Shown: positions 46,179-56,501 of the stretch, one piece after another
How positions within the stretch are numbered: position 1 is the stretch's first letter
Layout of the letters: each line of letters starts with the position of its first letter
Source: Gemmatimonadaceae bacterium
GTDB taxonomy: Bacteria > Gemmatimonadota > Gemmatimonadetes > Gemmatimonadales > Gemmatimonadaceae
Assembly (NCBI GenBank): GCA_037721215.1
Contig: JBBJNV010000005.1
Span: 1 to 64,000, forward strand
DNA length: 64,000 nt
Direction: 5' to 3'
Notes under the pieces: generated by a model
Database searches by the model: none
What the model was told of the DNA's origin: nothing
The model's input: only the letters and a program-made list of their open reading frames with translations
Translations under genes and position numbers: made by a program

Positions 46179-48125
46179 TCAGCGAACGATGATTTTTCTT
46201 AAATACCTCGGCGGCGTGTTGGCGTTTCCGATCGCGAGCGTGTACTCACCCGGAAATGGTGGCAGGAACTCCACGTCGACGGTCTCTCCCACGTCGAGGC
46301 GCGCAATCGCCGGAACAACGCGTGCGGCGCTCGGCGGAAGGTCGGCCCCGTCCTTGGCGCGCCGGCGCCACTTCACGGCAGTTGTATCGCGGCGAAGAGT
46401 TATTGCGACTATTCCGCCCGGACTGATGTTGATAAATCTCATCCGGTGAGGCACACCCGCGCCCATTACCAGCGGCGGCGAAACAGCGGCCCCGTTCACG
46501 ATGACTTTGTTCGGCCGCGCTGACCCGTCAGTGCCGGCGATGAAGAGATGATCGGTCAACGGATCGAAACGATCACCCGGGTCAAGCACTACGAGAGCGC
46601 CGTAGAGTCCGGAAGTGAGTCCCTCGACGTCATTGAGGTGAGTGTGGTAGATGAACGTTCCGGAACGAGGCATCGTGAGCCGGGCGGTGAACGATCCGCC
46701 AGGAGCAATGGCCGGGGCCACCCGGTTCATATCCCCACTCCAGCCGGCAACTCCATCCGAAAAACTTTCCAGCTCGAGCCCGTGCCAGTGCACCGCCATC
46801 TCCTCGGCGAGTCGATTCACAACCGTTATGTCGGTTGGCTCACCTCGTTTCAGCACGAGCACGGTACCAGGAATCTCGACGGAGTCGGCTGCCGGTGGAT
46901 GGTCACCACGCTGGAGGACAAAGCTCATCGCCCGAGGCGCGAGGCGAGTGGGTTTGCCTTCATTTACGAAAAGACGAAGCCGTCGCGCGGGACCGCGTAT
47001 GCTTTCCACAAACCCGGCGGCAGGACGAACTTCCACACCAAGCACGAGACCGGCCATGTGCCCCATGGGGTCATGACCGGGCACGGAATGAGATGTTTTC
47101 ATTGTTGCAGGCAGGCGCGCTTCGTCTGTCACATGCTGGGCGACATGACAATGGAACAGCCAGTTGCCTGGCCGCTCAGGACTCCATGCCATCGACATCG
47201 TCTCACCGGGAGGGAGACTCTCCGTCACGGCCAGCCGGCGATTGACCGGCGCGTACGTGCTGTCGCGCAGCCACGATCCGCGCGAGTCCACCCGAAAGTA
47301 GAACCCATGGAGATGCATCGGATGGTTGCGCGCGCTGCCGTTGATCACCCGCCAGCGCAGACTGTCACCGGTCGTAGCGCCGATTCGCTCGGTGTTGGGC
47401 CATGACTTTCCATTGAGGGTGAGGACGTTTCTATATCCCCTCGCGTCTGTCGAATCGCCCCAGACGTTGACGACGAAGATTCGGTCGTCGGTACTTCCCG
47501 TTGTGGAATCGACGACGAATGCCCCCGAAAGCTGCTCTCGTTCCATGATCACGCGTCGCGACTGGGGGTTCGGTCGCAGCACATAGCGGTTGGTCGTGCC
47601 GAGCGTGGCGTAGTACAGGTAGGTTCCCACCGCGCCTGCGGGAAAGGTGATGGTGCGCGACTCACCCGGACGTAGTGAAATGGTGTCGCGGGCTACGGAT
47701 GGCCTGGTGGCGAGCCCGTGGATGTAGACGGTGGAGTCAGGGAGCGAGTTGCGAACGGTGGCAACGACCGTTGTCCCGACCGGAACGCGGATGAGCGGAG
47801 CGGGGACTTGCGGCCGGCCACCTTCTTCGGCAAATGCCGCGACGTCTACTGAAGGGCCGTTGTCGGCCTCCGGGTACCACTTCGCCATTCCCACTGTAAG
47901 CCGGAGCTCGAGCTTCCCCGCTCGCAGCGTCCCGGCCGGCTTGCGATTGTCGTTCGCATGGACCGTTGAAGCGGAACTGCGCGCGTTCGATTCGGATTTC
48001 GCGAGGGGTGTTCGAGCTACGCCCGAGCCGCACGAGACTGTCATCAGCGTAAGACCCGTCACCACCAACAGCCGGGGTGCACACGGCACAGCGAAAGGGG
48101 GCCAGGGGAGCACGGTTCCGGGCAT
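46179..48125 (-). CDS. multicopper oxidase lipoprotein
   Basis: About 648 residues from the ATG at 48125 (MPGTVLPWPPF...), with a hydrophobic signal ending LMTVSCGSG, probably lipidated. All four copper-binding blocks of a three-domain laccase-like enzyme are visible: HPMHLHG, NWLFHCHVAQHVTDE, AVHWHGLELE and TFIYHTHLND. Their order is unusual: the HPMHLHG/HCH pair lies in the first half and HWHG/HTH in the second, the reverse of ordinary laccases. Could oxidise metals or phenols. The frame upstream to 48239 crosses the att repeat and is not used. Confidence 0.88.
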   Translation of the reverse strand: MPGTVLPWPPFAVPCAPRLLVVTGLTLMTVSCGSGVARTPLAKSESNARSSASTVHANDNRKPAGTLRAGKLELRLTVGMAKWYPEADNGPSVDVAAFAEEGGRPQVPAPLIRVPVGTTVVATVRNSLPDSTVYIHGLATRPSVARDTISLRPGESRTITFPAGAVGTYLYYATLGTTNRYVLRPNPQSRRVIMEREQLSGAFVVDSTTGSTDDRIFVVNVWGDSTDARGYRNVLTLNGKSWPNTERIGATTGDSLRWRVINGSARNHPMHLHGFYFRVDSRGSWLRDSTYAPVNRRLAVTESLPPGETMSMAWSPERPGNWLFHCHVAQHVTDEARLPATMKTSHSVPGHDPMGHMAGLVLGVEVRPAAGFVESIRGPARRLRLFVNEGKPTRLAPRAMSFVLQRGDHPPAADSVEIPGTVLVLKRGEPTDITVVNRLAEEMAVHWHGLELESFSDGVAGWSGDMNRVAPAIAPGGSFTARLTMPRSGTFIYHTHLNDVEGLTSGLYGALVVLDPGDRFDPLTDHLFIAGTDGSARPNKVIVNGAAVSPPLVMGAGVPHRMRFINISPGGIVAITLRRDTTAVKWRRRAKDGADLPPSAARVVPAIARLDVGETVDVEFLPPFPGEYTLAIGNANTPPRYLRKIIVR

Positions 48126-48173
48126 GGGGAAATATAGGCGTGAATAGCTCAAACCGCCCAGGTGATTCATTAC

Positions 48174-48233
48174 AATGCTCGGGGCGGGGCTCGAACCCGC
48201 ATGGCCTTTCAGCCGAGGGATTTTAAGTCCCTT
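48174..48233. repeat. left attachment site (60-bp tRNA-Leu 3' fragment)
   Basis: Identical base for base to 56416-56475. It carries the 3' part of tRNA-Leu(UAA): acceptor 3' strand, T-arm, variable arm and the anticodon loop, but not the 5' half. The sequence diverges from the intact tRNA immediately after the shared ...CCCTT on the plus strand. Confidence 0.95.
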
Positions 48234-48341
48234 TTCCATCGCTACCGAGGATTTTCTTATATAGTTAAGTGGCGCACTGACATAGGGTTAGCATTTTTCC
48301 AGAAAACTACAAACCTCCCCTCGCAGCAATTTGGGAGAGGT

Positions 48342-48792: not shown

Positions 48793-49743
48793 ATGCCAAA
48801 ACATAAAAACGGCACCGCCCCTACGCTATTTCCTCCCGGTGTTCGGATAGGAGAGCACTTCAACGCGCCACCCGATGACGTGACGGCCCCCTACATACAA
48901 TACAAGCACCCTCGGGGTGAACTCTGGTGCGGCAACTCGATTCAATGGCTCGACAGCTTGCCATCCGCTTCGGTCGACATGGTTTTCGCTGACCCTCCGT
49001 ACAACATCAATAAGGCGGACTGGGACAGCTTCGAAAGCCAAGAAGCTTATATCCACTGGTCGATATCGTGGATTTCCCAAATCGCTCGGGTTCTACGGCC
49101 GGAAGGTTCGGCTTATGTGTGCGGGTTTTCCGAAATCTTGGCCGACATTAAGCATCCCTCTTCACGCTACTTCGCTTCGTGCCGTTGGTTGGTTTGGCAC
49201 TACAAGAACAAAGCAAACTTAGGAAACGACTGGGGGCGTTCACACGAAAGCATTCTTCATCTTAGAAAATCGAAAAAAGTGCGCCTTAACCTAGACGACA
49301 TACGCATCCCTTACGGTGCGCATACTCTGAAATATCCCTCCCATCCGCAGGCCGAAACCAGCAATTTTGGAAGCGGCGCGGAGAGGGATAACTGGACACC
49401 TCATCCTCTCGGCGCGAAGCCAAAGGACGTCATCGAGATACCTACTACCTGTAACGGTATGGGGGAGAAAACTCCGCACCCAACACAAAAGCCTGAAGAG
49501 CTGGTTCGTAGATTTGTGCTTGCTTCCTCCACCGAAGGGTCCGTTGTTCTTGACCCATTCTCCGGATCAGGAACTACGCTGGTGGTCGCCGAACAGTTAG
49601 GGCGCCGATGGCTCGGGTGTGACCTTAGCTCTGAGTACAACGATTGGGCGATCTCACGGATTGACAACGTAAAACAGAAATCGGTCCGTCAGTGGATAGA
49701 TCACGATCGGATGGTAGCCCAGCGTCGGGAGAGTATTAGATGA
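48793..49743 (+). CDS. type II DNA methyltransferase, beta class (N6-adenine or N4-cytosine)
   Basis: 316 residues. The catalytic motif IV DPPYN (FADPPYNINKADWD) is N-terminal, followed by a target-recognition region, motif X (TPHPTQKPEELVRRF) and motif I (DPFSGSGTTLVVAEQLGRRWLG), the beta-class order. It modifies the element's own and host DNA, protecting it from the downstream nuclease. The AT content is visibly higher than in neighbouring chromosomal genes, consistent with acquisition. The specificity cannot be read from sequence. The stop overlaps the next gene by ATGA. Confidence 0.93.
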   Translation: MPKHKNGTAPTLFPPGVRIGEHFNAPPDDVTAPYIQYKHPRGELWCGNSIQWLDSLPSASVDMVFADPPYNINKADWDSFESQEAYIHWSISWISQIARVLRPEGSAYVCGFSEILADIKHPSSRYFASCRWLVWHYKNKANLGNDWGRSHESILHLRKSKKVRLNLDDIRIPYGAHTLKYPSHPQAETSNFGSGAERDNWTPHPLGAKPKDVIEIPTTCNGMGEKTPHPTQKPEELVRRFVLASSTEGSVVLDPFSGSGTTLVVAEQLGRRWLGCDLSSEYNDWAISRIDNVKQKSVRQWIDHDRMVAQRRESIR

Positions 49744-50702
49744 GTTTGACGGATCTCGTTAATAATGCGAAGGACAAGACTCGCTTTACTACCGTAAAAA
49801 ACTACGTCGATTTCTGCCTGAAATACCTAACATTCGCAAGAAACGGCTTACAAGCCGAAATCGTTTCGCAGAACGAAACCAACTACAGGTTTTTTCAATA
49901 CAAGGCGGATGGAGGCTACCGCATTACTCGGCCTTTAAACGCCAACCTGATGTATTCCGTCGACGACAGCGAAGCCCTTGGCCGAGAGTTTCCGAGCATG
50001 TTGAGGTCGGCACGAGAGATCGAACAAGGTGACCCGCGTCGGGAAGTATTTCTCCGCAGCATTTACACGATCCAACAAACAATAGGTGCCGCGCTTGATG
50101 CTTTGCCCGGAGAGCAGTCAAACACGGCGAGGAAAGTCAATGGCGACCTGTTCGAACGCTTTATCTCGTTACTCGTCAACGCGGTCGGCGTTAGCTGTCA
50201 GGCCGGCGTAGTCCAAGTTCCAATCGTAGTGGACGGAAATAATGAAGGCTTCATGTCATACCAGCACGACCTAATTATCAAGAACGAAAACGAGCTCAAA
50301 ATCATCGGTTCGGTAAAGACCTCAAGCAAGGACCGCATCGATAAGATCTTTCTCGACAAATTTCTTTATTCGAAACTGACCGAGACCTCCATCCCTCATA
50401 TCGCCATATTCTTGAACGATGTTCAGAGGAAAAAGGGGCGGCTGGCGAACCAGTACGGGGTAAATTCAACGTTCCTTTCCGGTCACTTCCGGGCATTCAC
50501 AATAAAACTGAACGCGCTCGATGGCGTGTACTACTGCGACCTGCGTCCGAATATGAAGACCGACGCTGTACTCAGCAGACACATTCGAACAATCGACAAC
50601 TTCTTCTTTGGCGACCTTTGGTCCTTCATGGGAACGCATGGTCTAATCGTCGCAAAAGAAGAGGTGGTGGATGGTGAGATAGTCGAAGTGGTGGAGCCGT
50701 AA
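49740..50702 (+). CDS. putative type II restriction endonuclease
   Basis: 320 residues, coupled to the methyltransferase (ATGA overlap), the usual arrangement for R-M pairs. A PD-(D/E)xK-like core is suggested by NGDLFERFISLL (conserved Glu), HDLIIKNENELKIIGSVKTSSK with the Asp about 18 residues before V-K, and the following KDRIDKIFL. The K-x-S-x-K-D-R pattern recalls the CCGG-family enzymes, but this is only a resemblance. I do not recognise a named prototype. Confidence 0.75.
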   Translation: MSLTDLVNNAKDKTRFTTVKNYVDFCLKYLTFARNGLQAEIVSQNETNYRFFQYKADGGYRITRPLNANLMYSVDDSEALGREFPSMLRSAREIEQGDPRREVFLRSIYTIQQTIGAALDALPGEQSNTARKVNGDLFERFISLLVNAVGVSCQAGVVQVPIVVDGNNEGFMSYQHDLIIKNENELKIIGSVKTSSKDRIDKIFLDKFLYSKLTETSIPHIAIFLNDVQRKKGRLANQYGVNSTFLSGHFRAFTIKLNALDGVYYCDLRPNMKTDAVLSRHIRTIDNFFFGDLWSFMGTHGLIVAKEEVVDGEIVEVVEP

Positions 50703-50732: not shown

Positions 50733-51761
50733 TTAGCGACTTCGCGTCTTTGGGCGCTTGCCCGCGGGTTGGTGGTGTGGCTCGGACTTTTTTCTGTCAA
50801 GTGCGATAGCAGCTCGGTACCTCTCAATGATTGTGGCCCGTTCGACTTCTCGCTGTTTGTCGCGTTCGGGTACTCGTGTTTCACTTAACCTTTGTTCGTC
50901 AATCGCGGTTTCGAGCTCTTGGCCTCGCTCGACATTCGGAAGAGGTACCGGTCTGGATGCCGCGGACTTGGCCGGTCGAAGGTTGTTGCGCTTCTTTCTC
51001 CGGATCATCTCTTCGCTCTGACGGGTCCCGGAGCCGCGTCGTTCAAGCTCCAAGACGGCCCGGCTGTAGTTTATTGGCTCCCTGTCGAGCATCTGGTCCG
51101 CAAGCGTTCTTCTGTCAACCTGGCTGAGCACTCCGGCATCGGTTAGAGCCGTATTAGCCATGATTTCAAATTGCTCCCGCACTTGGTCGACGCAGCCTTT
51201 GCCACATGTTGCCCGTCCATTTGTTTGGTCGCGGTCGCTTGCGAGAACACCTGGGCCCGGCCGCGCGTCCCATTCTCGTGTCTTTTCCCCAAAGCTTCCG
51301 CTGGTTAGATCAACGCGCCGCGTAGTAAATAAAAAATGAGCGTGGGGGTTACTGTCTAGCCGCGTTGCTCTGACTGGCCGGTGGATGGACGTATCAACCG
51401 CAACCCCGTACGTGTTGGAAAGCCACGATGCGAAGCTGCGGCAAAGTTCCGTGCCTTGGTCGTCCGTCAACTCGCGGGGAATGGATGCTTGAACCTCACG
51501 GGCAACTGTACTGTTCATCCGCTTTTCGGCTTGCTCCGCCCCATTCCACAATGCTGAGCGGGTACCGGTCCATCCAGTAAGCCATGACGAAGCCACGCCC
51601 GACTTACCCCTATAATCAAAGCGCTGCCCTGTCCAGGCTGTCATTCGGTTTCCCGCCCGATAGCACGCAGCGGCGACGGCGCTCTGCCCTCTCGCTCGTG
51701 AAAATGTTGAAACGCGCAGATGGTAGATTGCCAAGTTTTTCGCAGTAGCTGGTAAGAGCAC
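50733..51761 (-). CDS. MobA/MobL (MobQ) family relaxase
   Basis: Nicks the island's oriT for mobilization. 342 residues, start GTG (TTG at codon 10 also possible). The N-terminus AIYHLRVSTFSRARGQSAVAAACYRAG aligns with RSF1010 MobA, putting Tyr34 at the place of its catalytic Tyr25 (alignment from memory). The HxH metal motif is NPHAHFLFTTRR (His140, His142) with His127 in IHRP. The C-terminus is short and basic; there is no primase domain as in RSF1010 MobA/RepB. Transcribed away from the adjacent oriT. Confidence 0.9.
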   Translation of the reverse strand: MLLPATAKNLAIYHLRVSTFSRARGQSAVAAACYRAGNRMTAWTGQRFDYRGKSGVASSWLTGWTGTRSALWNGAEQAEKRMNSTVAREVQASIPRELTDDQGTELCRSFASWLSNTYGVAVDTSIHRPVRATRLDSNPHAHFLFTTRRVDLTSGSFGEKTREWDARPGPGVLASDRDQTNGRATCGKGCVDQVREQFEIMANTALTDAGVLSQVDRRTLADQMLDREPINYSRAVLELERRGSGTRQSEEMIRRKKRNNLRPAKSAASRPVPLPNVERGQELETAIDEQRLSETRVPERDKQREVERATIIERYRAAIALDRKKSEPHHQPAGKRPKTRSR

Positions 51762-51840
51762 CTAGGTAACCTTACGGGCTTAGATACTCCGGCGGCCAGA
51801 TTGGGCACTGCGCTGGTTTCACTGCCGTGGCCGCCCCGGT

Positions 51841-51861
51841 CCAAGGAAAAACTTTCCTTGG
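51841..51861 (+). repeat. hairpin 1 of the oriT region
   Basis: A perfect 9-bp inverted repeat CCAAGGAAA / TTTCCTTGG with loop AAC, immediately upstream of the oriT core. Confidence 0.7.
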
Positions 51862-51866
51862 CACGC

Positions 51867-51897
51867 CAAACTCAACGAGTTTGCCTAAGCGTGCCCT
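51867..51897 (+). other. oriT: origin of transfer (RSF1010/R1162-like oriT core)
   Basis: A 7-bp inverted repeat CAAACTC-AAC-GAGTTTG (51867-51883) is followed directly by CCTAAGCGTGCCCT (51884-51897). RSF1010-type oriTs have the same architecture: a short inverted repeat with a 3-nt loop, then a core ending TAA..GCGCCCT, nicked just before CCCT. By analogy the nick would fall between 51893 and 51894. It lies about 100 bp from the start of the MobA-type relaxase, which is expected. The strand entering first would carry the genes to the right and the relaxase last. Confidence 0.75.
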
Positions 51898-51899
51898 TC

Positions 51900-52013
51900 G
51901 TGTCGCGTTGCGACACCAAGGGACGGTGCTTGTTACCGGCCCGAGTTCGCGCGCTCGAAGGCTCTGCGAAGCAGAGACAAGAGCGTAAGCAACTGCCCGG
52001 CGGGAGGCCGGGC
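51900..52013 (+). repeat. further hairpins downstream of oriT
   Basis: Three more inverted repeats: GTGTCGC-GTT-GCGACAC (51900-51916), CTCTGC-GAA-GCAGAG (51962-51976) and GCCCGGC-GGGAG-GCCGGGC (51995-52013). Together with the two before them they make a palindrome-rich intergenic strip of 170 bp with no supported gene, fitting a transfer and possibly replication control region. Confidence 0.6.
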
Positions 52014-52080
52014 TGCCCTGGGAGTTGTTTTGTGCTCCGACGAACCGGTATGGTCTCTTTGTACCCGGTCCAAAAAAGCG

Positions 52081-52458
52081 ATGGCAAACCAGCGGGACGC
52101 CTCAACCTCTGTACATCCTCGCATTCAAGCTTTGCGAATGGAGACAGCTGCGCGCGGGGAGTTCTTGGCCCGAGCCTTTCGTGACGTTGACCTTATCCAA
52201 GCGGGCGGAGCGCCGGAGACTTTGGCGCTTATTGGTGGGCCGTCGGTCCGCACTCTCGCGCAAGCTTGGCCCGTTGCGTTCTGGCTTTGGAGCGAAGCGG
52301 AGCGAGCTGGACTAAACACCCCTGCCGCGGTTCTGTATAACGCAATCGCTCATAACTCATACCCCGGCCCGCGCCTGGGCGAAGACTCTGGCTGGCATTT
52401 TCCAGCCGTACACGCGCCGCGATGGCCCTCGCTCGGCAACTACTCAACGCCGCCCTGA
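52081..52458 (+). CDS. hypothetical protein of the mobilizable element
   Basis: 125 residues from the ATG at 52081 (MANQRDASTSVHPRIQAL). Moderately acidic with an alpha-helical middle (RGEFLARAFRDVDLIQAGGAPETLALIG) and no membrane segment. It is the first gene on the leading side of oriT, a position where anti-defence or establishment genes are common. I do not recognise a family. Confidence 0.45.
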   Translation: MANQRDASTSVHPRIQALRMETAARGEFLARAFRDVDLIQAGGAPETLALIGGPSVRTLAQAWPVAFWLWSEAERAGLNTPAAVLYNAIAHNSYPGPRLGEDSGWHFPAVHAPRWPSLGNYSTPP

Positions 52459-53192: not shown

Positions 53193-53477
53193 ATGCCGAA
53201 AGCAAAACAAACTGCCGATGTAATGCGCGAACGAGCTCGTGCCCTGCTTGCGCGAGCGGCGGCGAAGGACGCCCGAGCGAACGCTGTCTTGCGCAAGAAG
53301 GAAACTCACAAAAAAATCGTGGCCGGCGGCTTCTTCTTATCGCTCGTCGGAGCGGATCTATCTCGGCTCACCCCCGAGGTCCGCGCCAAAATGGAGCGCG
53401 ACATACAGCGGCCTCACGACCGCCGCGCTCTCGGACTTCCCCCGCTCCCAACCCCAACCCAATCTTCCAATGAATAG
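53193..53477 (+). CDS. TraD/MobC-like mobilization accessory protein
   Basis: 94 residues, very basic. ALLARAAAKDARANAVLRKKETHKKIVAGGFFLSLVGADLSRLTPEV has the layout of the small TraD-type proteins (KRKxxTRRKIxLGG...) that accompany MobQ/Ti-type relaxases and help at oriT. The match is by pattern only. Its stop overlaps the next start. Confidence 0.6.
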   Translation: MPKAKQTADVMRERARALLARAAAKDARANAVLRKKETHKKIVAGGFFLSLVGADLSRLTPEVRAKMERDIQRPHDRRALGLPPLPTPTQSSNE

Positions 53478-54146: not shown

Positions 54147-54177
54147 AAAGAGCCGCCGAACCATTCGGCGGCTCTTT
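54147..54177 (+). terminator. rho-independent terminator of the mobilization operon
   Basis: A perfect 14-bp stem (AAAGAGCCGCCGAA / TTCGGCGGCTCTTT) with a 3-nt loop, then ACTTTT, about 70 bp after the previous stop. It isolates the rep gene. Confidence 0.85.
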
Positions 54178-54235: not shown

Positions 54236-55120
54236 ATGGATGATACAAGTCAAAGACACCCCCGAGCCAGCGAAATCCGTGACGGTGTAATCGGAACAAT
54301 CTTGAATGCCGTTCAAGGCATGGGCGACGATCCGGAAGAAGTGCGCGAAAGGATCGCTGAGCGGAAACGAGGCTTAGACGTAAAGCCCGAAACGGCTGTG
54401 TGGATTGAGGACCTAAAGACTGGAGAGTTCTTAAAATCGAGCCTTGAACTGCGAGCGCCGCGTCAAAAACGCGCCAGATCCATCGGATATTTTGTACGCG
54501 TTTCTCGGAAGGAGCTTTACGAAATGGCGATTAACCCGCCGCCCCGGTCGGCGCGTACTGTTCTTGATTACCTGCTAGCAACCTGTGATTGGAACAACAG
54601 TGTCGACGTAAGACATCACGAGATCGCGGATGCCGTGAATATGAAACGACCCAATGTTTCCCGTGCCATCCGCTGGCTCATCGACGCAACCTACCTCGTA
54701 GTTCCGCCGGTCAAGCCGAACGCTCTCCCATGGATGCCTGGAAAACGGAAACGGTACTGGCTCAATCCCGACATTTTCGCTTTTGGCGATGACAAGGAAA
54801 ACGCAGCCCTCCAAAATGAAATCGAGGAGTACGAGCGAGAGAAACAAAAAGTCTCCGCCGATATGGATCAACTCTACGGGCGGGGCCTATACCGATGGCC
54901 ATCCGAAAAAAGCCACATTCTCCTTTGTATCACCACAGATACCAAGTGGTATCACGGGCGATACCTGGCCGTAGAGGGAAATAGTAGGCTTCCTATATTA
55001 GTCTTGGGGTCTGGGGTGTTTCGCTGCTTTTCCCACCTGCTTCCGGTTGCCCGTTTTTCGCCCCGCGCTGTGCCTTCTGGGGCTCCGGATCGACCCGGAC
55101 AAAACAGCCATGACGACTGA
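54236..55120 (+). CDS. RepL-like plasmid replication initiator
   Basis: 294 residues from the ATG at 54236, preceded by GGAGGCGGC. A winged-helix DNA-binding core ARTVLDYLLATCDWNNSVDVRHHEIADAVNMKRPNVSRAIRWLIDATYLVV, then PGKRKRYWLNPDIFAFGDDKE, matches the pattern of RepL-type and similar plasmid initiators. A coiled coil (EIEEYEREKQKVSADM) follows. The last about 65 residues look non-conserved, and the DNA there carries GATACC repeats, so part may be a read-through after a frameshift. The longer frame to 54107 crosses the terminator and is rejected. Confidence 0.72.
   Translation: MDDTSQRHPRASEIRDGVIGTILNAVQGMGDDPEEVRERIAERKRGLDVKPETAVWIEDLKTGEFLKSSLELRAPRQKRARSIGYFVRVSRKELYEMAINPPPRSARTVLDYLLATCDWNNSVDVRHHEIADAVNMKRPNVSRAIRWLIDATYLVVPPVKPNALPWMPGKRKRYWLNPDIFAFGDDKENAALQNEIEEYEREKQKVSADMDQLYGRGLYRWPSEKSHILLCITTDTKWYHGRYLAVEGNSRLPILVLGSGVFRCFSHLLPVARFSPRAVPSGAPDRPGQNSHDD
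54938..54965 (+). repeat. GATACC direct/inverted repeat within the rep 3' end
   Basis: GATACC (54938-54943), GGTATC (54948-54953) and GATACC (54960-54965): two direct copies 22 bp apart, with an inverted copy between. Possible initiator-binding site or origin element. Confidence 0.4.
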
Positions 55121-55161: not shown

Positions 55162-56337
55162 ATGCCAAAGAAGAAAAGCCGACCCGCACCCTGGTCCGGC
55201 GCGGCAGGTCATCGAAACACCAACGGCCGAGGGAGTCTAAAAATAGACCGGGTGTTCCGGGATGTGGGTCGAATAAATCGACACACAGGTACAAACTCTC
55301 TCGTTGTATTTCGACAAATCTCGCAAACGCTCACGGCTTTATACGAACACGGGCATTTGGGATACTTGCGAGAAATCAAAGCGGGCAGACTGTCGATGCT
55401 TGCGGCCTTGGAAGCACACAAGAAAATGGGTATGGAGGGCATTCCCTCACCAGAACTTGCGCGACCAATCTCCGTCGCGTGGGGCGAATGGCTGGGCCAG
55501 TTTCGCGTAGGCAACGACATTTCGGAGGTTCATGCCGATGATCTTGCGCGCCGGCTGCGACAGCTCACCACCCGTAAAGTCCCTGCGGAATACGATCCGA
55601 CGCGGCTTGAGCTTGACGAAGTCGCAACTGCCAACAACCTCGCACGTCCCGTAATCGAACTACCCAAGCTTCTCGCAGAATATCGGGATTATACGTTAGG
55701 AATTACGACTTTCAATCGGGTCCGGGCTGCGTGCCAGGCTTTCGCCCGCGACAACGGCGGGCGACAATCGTTGCTCTGGAAGGAGATCACAAATACACGG
55801 CGTTACAAAGAGAGACCACTCAGCCAACGCAAGCGGTACCCACTCGAAGTTTCTGAGTTAGTGAAGCTGGCTGAAGCGAGCGACGACGACAGCGCGCGCG
55901 CAGTGTTGTCCATGGCGCTCACCGGAATGGGCATCACAGAATATTGGGGGTTTTGGGAAGACAGCCCACAGCTGATTTATGTCCACGGTGAAAAGCGCAA
56001 AGGGAGGGATCGCCCCATTCTGCGCCTCGTCAAACCGTGGCAGCCGGATAATTTCACTGCGGACGCTTTCCGGCGGCGGCTAACAAAAATCGCCAATACT
56101 TCTGGTCTTCCGGTTCGCCCTTATGACCTGCGCCGAACTTTCGCCCGCCTGCTTGAAAATGCCGGGGTAGTGCGATCCAACTGCTCGGCGTACATGGGGC
56201 ACGGTCCGAAGTCCTTATTCGATTTATACGCCCACGGAGACGCCATTCGCTTTATTGGGGCGGATGCCGAACGAGTACGCGCCCACCTCGCGCCACTTAC
56301 CCCAATCTTGGAACGTCTCGGGCTAAATCCTGAATAA
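55162..56337 (+). CDS. int: tyrosine recombinase (integrase) of the element
   Basis: 391 residues. Site-specific integration and excision at tRNA-Leu. N-terminal about 190 residues form the arm/core-binding part; the C-terminal catalytic domain shows the lysine-bearing turn GEKRKGRDRPI, YDLRRTFARLLENAG (Arg324), MGHGPKS (His347) and the nucleophile in LFDLYAHGD (Tyr356). Two canonical residues differ: the Arg of the TG-x-R motif is Gly257 (LTGMGITEY), and the His of HxxR is Tyr321. Its 3' end lies 80 bp from the tRNA end, the normal position. Confidence 0.9.
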   Translation: MPKKKSRPAPWSGAAGHRNTNGRGSLKIDRVFRDVGRINRHTGTNSLVVFRQISQTLTALYEHGHLGYLREIKAGRLSMLAALEAHKKMGMEGIPSPELARPISVAWGEWLGQFRVGNDISEVHADDLARRLRQLTTRKVPAEYDPTRLELDEVATANNLARPVIELPKLLAEYRDYTLGITTFNRVRAACQAFARDNGGRQSLLWKEITNTRRYKERPLSQRKRYPLEVSELVKLAEASDDDSARAVLSMALTGMGITEYWGFWEDSPQLIYVHGEKRKGRDRPILRLVKPWQPDNFTADAFRRRLTKIANTSGLPVRPYDLRRTFARLLENAGVVRSNCSAYMGHGPKSLFDLYAHGDAIRFIGADAERVRAHLAPLTPILERLGLNPE

Positions 56338-56415: not shown

Positions 56416-56475
56416 AATGCTCGGGGCGGGGCTCGAACCCGCATGGCCTTTCAGCCGAGGGATTTTAAGTCCCTT
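56416..56475. repeat. right attachment site (60 bp)
   Basis: Exact copy of 48174-48233; forms the 3' portion of the intact tRNA-Leu gene. Confidence 0.95.
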
Positions 56476-56501
56476 GCGTCTACCGGTTTCGCCACCCGAG
56501 C
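56418..56501 (-). tRNA. tRNA-Leu(UAA)
   Basis: 84 nt. Acceptor GCTCGGG / CCCGAGC with discriminator A, D-arm, anticodon arm GGGAC-TTAAAAT-CCC with anticodon UAA, long class II variable arm (TCGGCTGAAAGGCCAT), T-arm GCGGG-TTCGAGC-CCCGC. The 3' CCA is not encoded. Target of integration of the neighbouring element. Confidence 0.95.

Follow-up and report, generated by a model that had tools for sequence, protein, structure and literature searches.

A covarying outer helix at the predicted nick of MOBQ transfer origins, examined from an integrative mobilizable element of Gemmatimonadaceae

Origins of transfer (oriTs) are usually predicted by seeking a hairpin together with a nic core. In the MOBV1 plasmid pMV158, the inner hairpin is nested in a longer stem (IR3) that has a 3-nt bulge and carries the nick at the 3' end of its arm (PMC5863519). 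MobM converts IR3 to IR1 and thereby exposes the nick, and the authors of that study call the hairpin layout different from other known systems (PMC5863519). When we searched the open-licence literature for a comparable outer, or lock, helix in MOBQ oriTs, we found no description of one, and pMV158 alone came up.

Among described MOBQ systems, the IncQ1 plasmids RSF1010 and R1162 (MOBQ1) provide the reference for the locus described here. They share with it a nic core identical at 10 of 12 positions, the G^C nick dinucleotide, a hairpin with a 3-nt loop just upstream, the catalytic motifs of the relaxase and a MobC homologue. However, the inverted repeat (IR) differs in sequence, and its loop is AAC here but GAA there. 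For the mobile element that carries the locus, the relevant comparison is with integrative mobilizable elements (IMEs) in the 3' ends of tRNA genes, such as NBU1, MTnPi4 (tRNA-Leu) and BcenGI2, which has Rep_3 (PMC5704250).

In this report, we analyze a window (the whole stretch of DNA under study, 64,000 nucleotides) from a Gemmatimonadaceae bacterium. We consider that positions 51860-51897 are probably the oriT of an 8.2-kb IME in the 3' end of a tRNA-Leu(UAA) gene, and we propose that an outer helix there locks the nick until the relaxase binds. A broader proposal, for which we judge the chances to be about even, is that most MOBQ origins, including that of pSC101 and this one, bear a covarying second helix that locks the nick. 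A hairpin switch known only from the MOBV plasmid pMV158 would thus be general to two relaxase families. The helix would have been overlooked in MOBQ because the two best-studied origins have an arm that is either displaced (IncQ1/RSF1010) or weak (pIP501 type).

The element and its transfer origin

The element is 8,242 bp long and has a G+C content of 55.5%, as against 60.6-61.7% in its flanks. Its principal features are as follows.

48174-48233: attL, a 60-bp exact copy of the 3' part of tRNA-Leu
48793-49743, + strand: type II DNA methyltransferase of a passenger restriction-modification system (Pfam PF01555, E 7.9e-48; PADLOC, E 1.1e-64)
49740-50702, + strand: its type II restriction endonuclease partner (PADLOC REase_II, E 1.4e-97)
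50733-51761, - strand: MOBQ-class relaxase, MobA/MobL (Pfam PF03389, E 1.2e-37, 130.3 bits against a cut-off of 26.7)
53193-53477, + strand: MobC homologue, 94 aa, about 1.3 kb from the oriT with other reading frames between
54236-55120, + strand: Rep-like (winged-helix/HTH) gene (weak RepL/HTH matches; PHROG replication initiation O-like; 25-34% identity to HTH proteins of small plasmids)
55162-56337, + strand: tyrosine recombinase (integrase) beside the tRNA gene (Pfam PF00589, E 0.0015, under the cut-off; PHROG integrase, E 7.9e-6)
56416-56475: attR, the same 60 bp within the intact tRNA-Leu(TAA) gene (56418-56501, - strand)

This is an integrative mobilizable element of a known type, a small IME in a tRNA gene: it has an integrase, att sites in direct repeat, and a relaxase with an oriT, and it has no transfer channel of its own. 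It resembles the tRNA-associated IMEs cited above (PMC5704250) in its tyrosine integrase, its site in a tRNA 3' end, its relaxase and oriT without a channel, its replication gene, and passengers of the restriction-modification or toxin-antitoxin kind. In contrast to NBU1, MTnPi4 and BcenGI2, to whose genes its own are unrelated, it encodes a relaxase that is MOBQ and is absent from the other genus members searched. A DUF2958 gene is also among the passengers. The element itself is ordinary, apart from the displaced mobC and the Rep gene behind a terminator-like leader hairpin. Identity of the att copies throughout their 60 bp suggests a recent insertion, and the reading frames of the relaxase, MobC, integrase, methyltransferase and endonuclease are intact. 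A gene for a coupling protein (PF12696) was not found in the host genome, so transfer would proceed through the conjugation channel of another element. In a search of 60 other related genomes, this relaxase was not detected. The same tRNA-Leu is present in most genomes of the genus, with the same downstream gene beside it in three, and no IME proteins adjoin the tRNA-Leu in the related loci checked.

Two observations concern other genes of the region. The leader of the Rep-like gene contains a perfect 14-bp hairpin (54147-54177, loop CCA) followed by a T-rich stretch, which is terminator-like; the gene itself has a GGAGG Shine-Dalgarno sequence and an ATG at 54236. The Rfam model ctRNA_p42d scores 22.7 on this leader, under its gathering score of 50. 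The hairpin looks like an attenuator for Rep on the integrated element. At the other end, a multicopper oxidase reading frame (46179-48239 at its annotated length) includes the attL tRNA fragment in its N-terminal part (MEKGLKIPRLKGHAGSSPAPSIV), and therefore its true start is probably further in. None of the multicopper oxidase homologues searched in the genus adjoins this tRNA.

PF03389 is the only domain detected in the 342-aa relaxase. The NCBIfam MobQ equivalog (NF041496) matches with E 4e-47 and 160.6 bits, under its 200-bit cut-off, and we therefore file the protein in the MOBQ class, outside that equivalog. Its start is probably the TTG at 51734, because AIYHL aligns there with the MAIYHL start of relatives. 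In numbering from the GTG at 51761, Tyr34, E89, H127, H140 and H142 align with Y25, E74, H112, H120 and H122 of MobA, whose catalytic residues were taken from PMC6856555; the second Glu of MobA (E76) is Q91 here. The assignment of Tyr34 to the position of the MobA nucleophile, made previously from the sequence, holds in alignments with the corresponding Tyr of MobA_R1162 (PDB 2ns6) and of NES (4ht4). The relaxase is a singleton, with a best identity of 49% and a long branch on the tree, and its own oriT therefore has no close relative for comparison.

The MobC homologue is 40% identical to IncQ1 MobC over 60 aa (E 1e-9, pairwise; E 1.6e-4 over all fetched loci). A tblastn search of the plasmid collection gave no match at E 0.001, and the assignment therefore rests on pairwise comparisons. 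Another reading frame, orf142 (52081-52458), was considered as MobC on account of its place beside the oriT and was rejected, as it has no similarity. With mobC displaced, the module departs from the usual MOBQ gene order.

The oriT consists of the following parts, all on the + strand.

51860-51866: left arm of the outer helix, GGCACGC, with a 0-nt gap to the inner repeat; covariation is seen in relatives
51867-51883: inner (relaxase-recognition) inverted repeat, CAAACTC-AAC-GAGTTTG, a perfect 7/3/7 hairpin whose position and geometry recur in 55 non-redundant related oriTs
51886-51897: nic core, TAAGCGTG^CCCT, identical at 10 of 12 positions to the IncQ1/pSC101/pSK41 core
51889-51895: right arm of the outer helix, GCGTG^CC, which is part of the nic core and spans the predicted nick

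The inner repeat is thus followed by CC and then by TAAGCGTGCCCT. By analogy with the related cores, the nick is predicted on the + strand between G51893 and C51894. As expected of a MOBQ oriT, the hairpin is succeeded within a few nucleotides by a core resembling TAAGTGCG^CCCT, and it lies upstream of a MOBQ relaxase gene and opposite to it: the distance is 152 nt, and in relatives the oriT lies 34-470 nt from the relaxase match. When the window was scanned for a MOBQ core with at most three mismatches and an adjacent inverted repeat, 51867-51897 was the best site, and the remaining hits, elsewhere in the window, had weaker repeats.

The sequence-only reading had recognized this repeat and an RSF1010-type nic core, and both are borne out. 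It had also made its case depend on the core being conserved in related elements, which it is: all 55 related oriTs have G^C at the nick and nearly all have TAAG, within a set that is not a census, because our locating procedure favoured consensus-like cores. The loops of the nic hairpins in relatives are mostly GNA, with AAC in 3 of 55.

Its description of the oriT as RSF1010-like is apt as regards the core and the existence of a MobC homologue, but not as regards the IR, whose sequence is unrelated to that of RSF1010. We qualify the term for this reason, and also because the exact core TAAGCGTGCCCT is common to Sphingobium loci and a gammaproteobacterial locus and because the relaxase matches RSF1010 MobA weakly (33 bits). 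The features that mark RSF1010-type MOBQ1 systems, namely, a divergent mobC adjacent to the oriT, MobB and a fusion of MobA to a primase, were not found: MobB was not recognised, and the 342-aa relaxase contrasts with an RSF1010 MobA that bears a C-terminal primase. Moreover, mobC is not beside the oriT here, and the element is chromosomal and has an integrase. The oriTs that share the core exactly with 51886-51897 are MOBQ oriTs of Sphingobium and Sphingomonas (L038, L040, L063, L071 and L082) and the gammaproteobacterial L183. These also have a CACGC arm abutting the hairpin, but their inner hairpins differ in sequence and their relaxases lie elsewhere on the tree.

The outer helix and its recurrence in MOBQ oriTs

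A feature that the sequence-only reading missed is that GGCACGC (51860-51866) is exactly complementary to GCGTGCC (51889-51895). With the inner repeat, this outer helix makes one 14-bp stem that is interrupted on one side by the bulge CCTAA (51884-51888) and has the predicted nick inside it. The fold has a predicted energy of -13.1 kcal/mol (z -5.3).

We compared the region with other MOBQ oriTs at relaxase loci drawn from genome contigs (80), viral contigs (20), plasmids and genome searches. In the genome contigs, a single relaxase sequence retrieved no relatives, and the 80 loci were obtained with an alignment as the query. At each locus, the best hairpin and core near the relaxase start were chosen, and the upstream arm was not used in this choice. 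The resulting set comprises 109 oriTs, or 55 without near-duplicates. As one fixed register undercounted helices that were shifted, the registers were widened and matched controls were used.

An outer helix of at least four contiguous Watson-Crick pairs is present in 32 of the 55 non-redundant oriTs, and one of at least five pairs in 24, whereas control registers 8-27 nt further upstream give such helices in 2.1% and 1.1% of cases, respectively. By the strict criterion, a helix of at least 4 bp is absent in 23 of the 55 clusters, especially those of Acinetobacter and of several Rhizobiales. The geometry of the 32 helices is regular. In 31, the 5' arm follows the inner stem with a 0-nt gap, for inner stems of 6 to 9 bp, and on the 3' side ATAA is the most frequent bulge (20 cases). 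The last pair falls at the nick in 15 helices, one position short of it in 11, and one or two positions past it in 6.

Evidence of covariation was sought in several ways. When arms were dealt to other cores, total pairing averaged 146 and never exceeded 175 over 3000 trials, as compared with 203 observed. Cells in which both sides had changed numbered 17 by pair counting, against 5.6 +/- 2.0, a value that none of 500 shuffles reached. The covariation score was 0.230 versus 0.157, with slid versions at 0.131 or less. At least 13 changes of core state fall on the relaxase tree, and variant cores often occur with matching arms.

Specifically, where a core departs from GTGCG, whose arm is CGCAC, the upstream arm often departs too. 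The GCGTG core is found with a CACGC arm in this element, in the Sphingobium loci and in L183; GTGGG with CCCAC in Paracoccus-type loci and, separately, in L048; CTGCG with CGCAG in L029 and L062; GTGAG with CTCACT in L081; ATGCG with GCATTT in L026; ATGGG with CCATTT in L174; and GCGCG with AGCGC in L069, L130, L181 and L184. The double change in L048 (GTGGG/CCCAC) lies inside a GTGCG/CGCAC clade and is accompanied by an identical inner hairpin.

Described plasmids vary in this respect. Outer pairing is available in pSC101 (GGGCGCAC/GTGCGCCC) and pSK41 (GCAC/GTGC), and any such pairing in the pIP501-type plasmid pRE25 is weak (GCAT/GTGC). In the IncQ1 plasmid at locus L113, an upstream GCGCAC can pair with GTGCGC, but the arm that is adjacent to the hairpin in our element is 22 nt away in IncQ1, with extra hairpins. 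A 38-bp oriT of R1162 suffices for transfer; it would exclude this distant arm, and therefore the outer helix is not strictly essential there.

The sequence around the IncQ1 arm has a counterpart elsewhere in our set. In L113 (1150-1260), 22 nt separate AGCGCAC from the known inverted repeat downstream of it, and the surrounding sequence, CTCGGAGAGCGCAC, is nearly identical to that of L060, where AGCGCAC abuts the hairpin. The 22-nt insert of L113 can fold on itself, so the outer stem can close.

Proposed role of the helix, and alternatives

Covariation alone does not tell one function of the pairing from another. The arrangement nevertheless resembles that of the pMV158 oriT, in that a bulged outer stem surrounds an inner hairpin and ends at or across the nick. 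The two differ in relaxase family (that of pMV158 uses a His nucleophile) and in sequence, and it is from covariation alone that we infer the MOBQ helix.

On this model, the MOBQ relaxase would, after excision of the element, bind the inner hairpin (51867-51883), cut the + strand at G51893^C51894 by means of Tyr34, and remain on C51894. The strand would then exit 5' to 3' in the direction of mobC, rep and int, and the relaxase gene would be the last to leave. Where the DNA is single-stranded or extruded, the nic core would be paired, GCGTGCC with GGCACGC, and the nick would be held in the bulged 14-bp stem. Binding of the relaxase would melt the outer helix yet keep the inner hairpin, as MobM does at IR3 of pMV158 (PMC5863519). 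Acting as a lock, the outer helix would therefore expose the nick to the cognate relaxase alone, at initiation and again at termination.

The main rival to this proposal, which we regard as unlikely, is that the upstream arm is an inverted second half-site for the relaxase on double-stranded DNA, the copies of which change together as the specificity of the protein changes. Such half-sites would likewise give correlated changes, and TraA of pIP501 binds the left half repeats on double-stranded DNA and represses its own promoter (PMC4981023). However, the mirrored part starts at the pairing segment of the core and omits the nearly invariant TAA; TTA occurs within the last 8 upstream nucleotides in 3 of 55 oriTs only. 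Also, the arm joins the inner stem without a gap and the other side has a 4-nt bulge, so half-sites would not be symmetrically spaced. With TAA left out of the mirrored segment, and with that segment anchored on the inner stem, half-sites fit less well than a helix. Imperfect pairs point weakly in the same direction. Twelve helices have a single such pair, which is G-T or T-G in 6, A-G in 6, and A-C or C-A in none, a pattern that favours pairing on the transferred strand, given in small numbers and biased by core composition.

Less probable still is that the helix acts in RNA, with the oriT forming part of the relaxase mRNA leader (bottom strand) and its stems controlling transcription or translation. 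The spacing between the oriT and the relaxase given above, here and in relatives, would suit a leader, and many mob promoters overlap the oriT (PMC4981023). On the other hand, wobble pairs on the transferred strand would be A-C mismatches in the mRNA, which is a weak argument, and it is the nic core on which the helix is anchored. A search of 51650-52200 revealed no sigma-70-like promoter.

Should the outer helix prove real, oriT prediction would gain a third criterion, one based on structure, which ties each variant of the core to its partner arm and should sharpen prediction. The helix would also give a simple account of how cleavage of the single strand is held off until the cognate relaxase binds. 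Finally, a mechanism shown in one MOBV plasmid becomes testable in the MOBQ class by paired mutations.

The hairpins around the origin

The inner repeat is the second in a strip of five hairpins, the others being these, all on the + strand.

51841-51861: hairpin 1, CCAAGGAAA-AAC-TTTCCTTGG, flanking upstream; 9 of 55 relatives have hairpins here, against 1.9% in shuffles
51894-51922: hairpin 3, CCCTTCGTGTCGC-GTT-GCGACACCAAGGG, with its perfect part at 51900-51916; rare in relatives (3 of 55)
51962-51976: hairpin 4, with a GAA loop
51995-52013: hairpin 5, G+C-rich, GCCCGGC-GGGAG-GCCGGGC

That five hairpins lie within 51841-52013 had been reported from the sequence, and we find five non-overlapping perfect hairpins there (arms of at least 6, loops of 3-5). 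The whole window has 64 such hairpins, with at most two in any 173-bp stretch outside the strip. The expectation is 0.17 per 173 bp, for which five have a Poisson probability of about 1e-6, or about 4e-4 when corrected for the number of windows. A 201-nt strip folds 5.1 standard deviations better than its shuffles (z -5.1). The outer arms of hairpin 3, which had been missed, begin at the predicted nick, where the transferred strand is expected to have its 5' end. As CC at 51894-51895 is common to hairpin 3 and the outer helix, the two full forms compete. Among relatives, a strong hairpin lies immediately downstream of nic in 3 of 55, and 9 of 55 have one immediately upstream (1.9% in the shuffled control).

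The same reading had noted flanking hairpins with an AAC loop on the left (51841-51861) and a GTT loop on the right (51900-51916), which are indeed present, and had taken the loops to mark repeated binding sites for relaxosome proteins. Every hairpin of the window with an AAC or GTT loop (three) falls in the strip, and upstream hairpins are enriched in relatives at the frequencies just given. Nevertheless, we doubt strongly that the strip is an array of such sites, and we reject repeated AAC sites: the stems are unrelated and have no common sequence, and neither AAC loops nor downstream hairpins are common to relatives. Least credible is that the oriT has decayed, the element being a non-mobile remnant and the hairpins relics, as might be argued from the singleton status of the element, the PF12696 gene not found in the host genome and the non-contiguous mob genes, but against which stand the intact reading frames, the att copies identical over 60 bp, and the perfect core, IR and outer helix.

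A further complementarity was observed within this region. AAGTTTTTC, at the start of the relaxase gene (51733-51741), and GAAAAACTT, in hairpin 1 (51846-51854), are exact complements, which possibly reflects a long-range pairing in a mob transcript, or chance.
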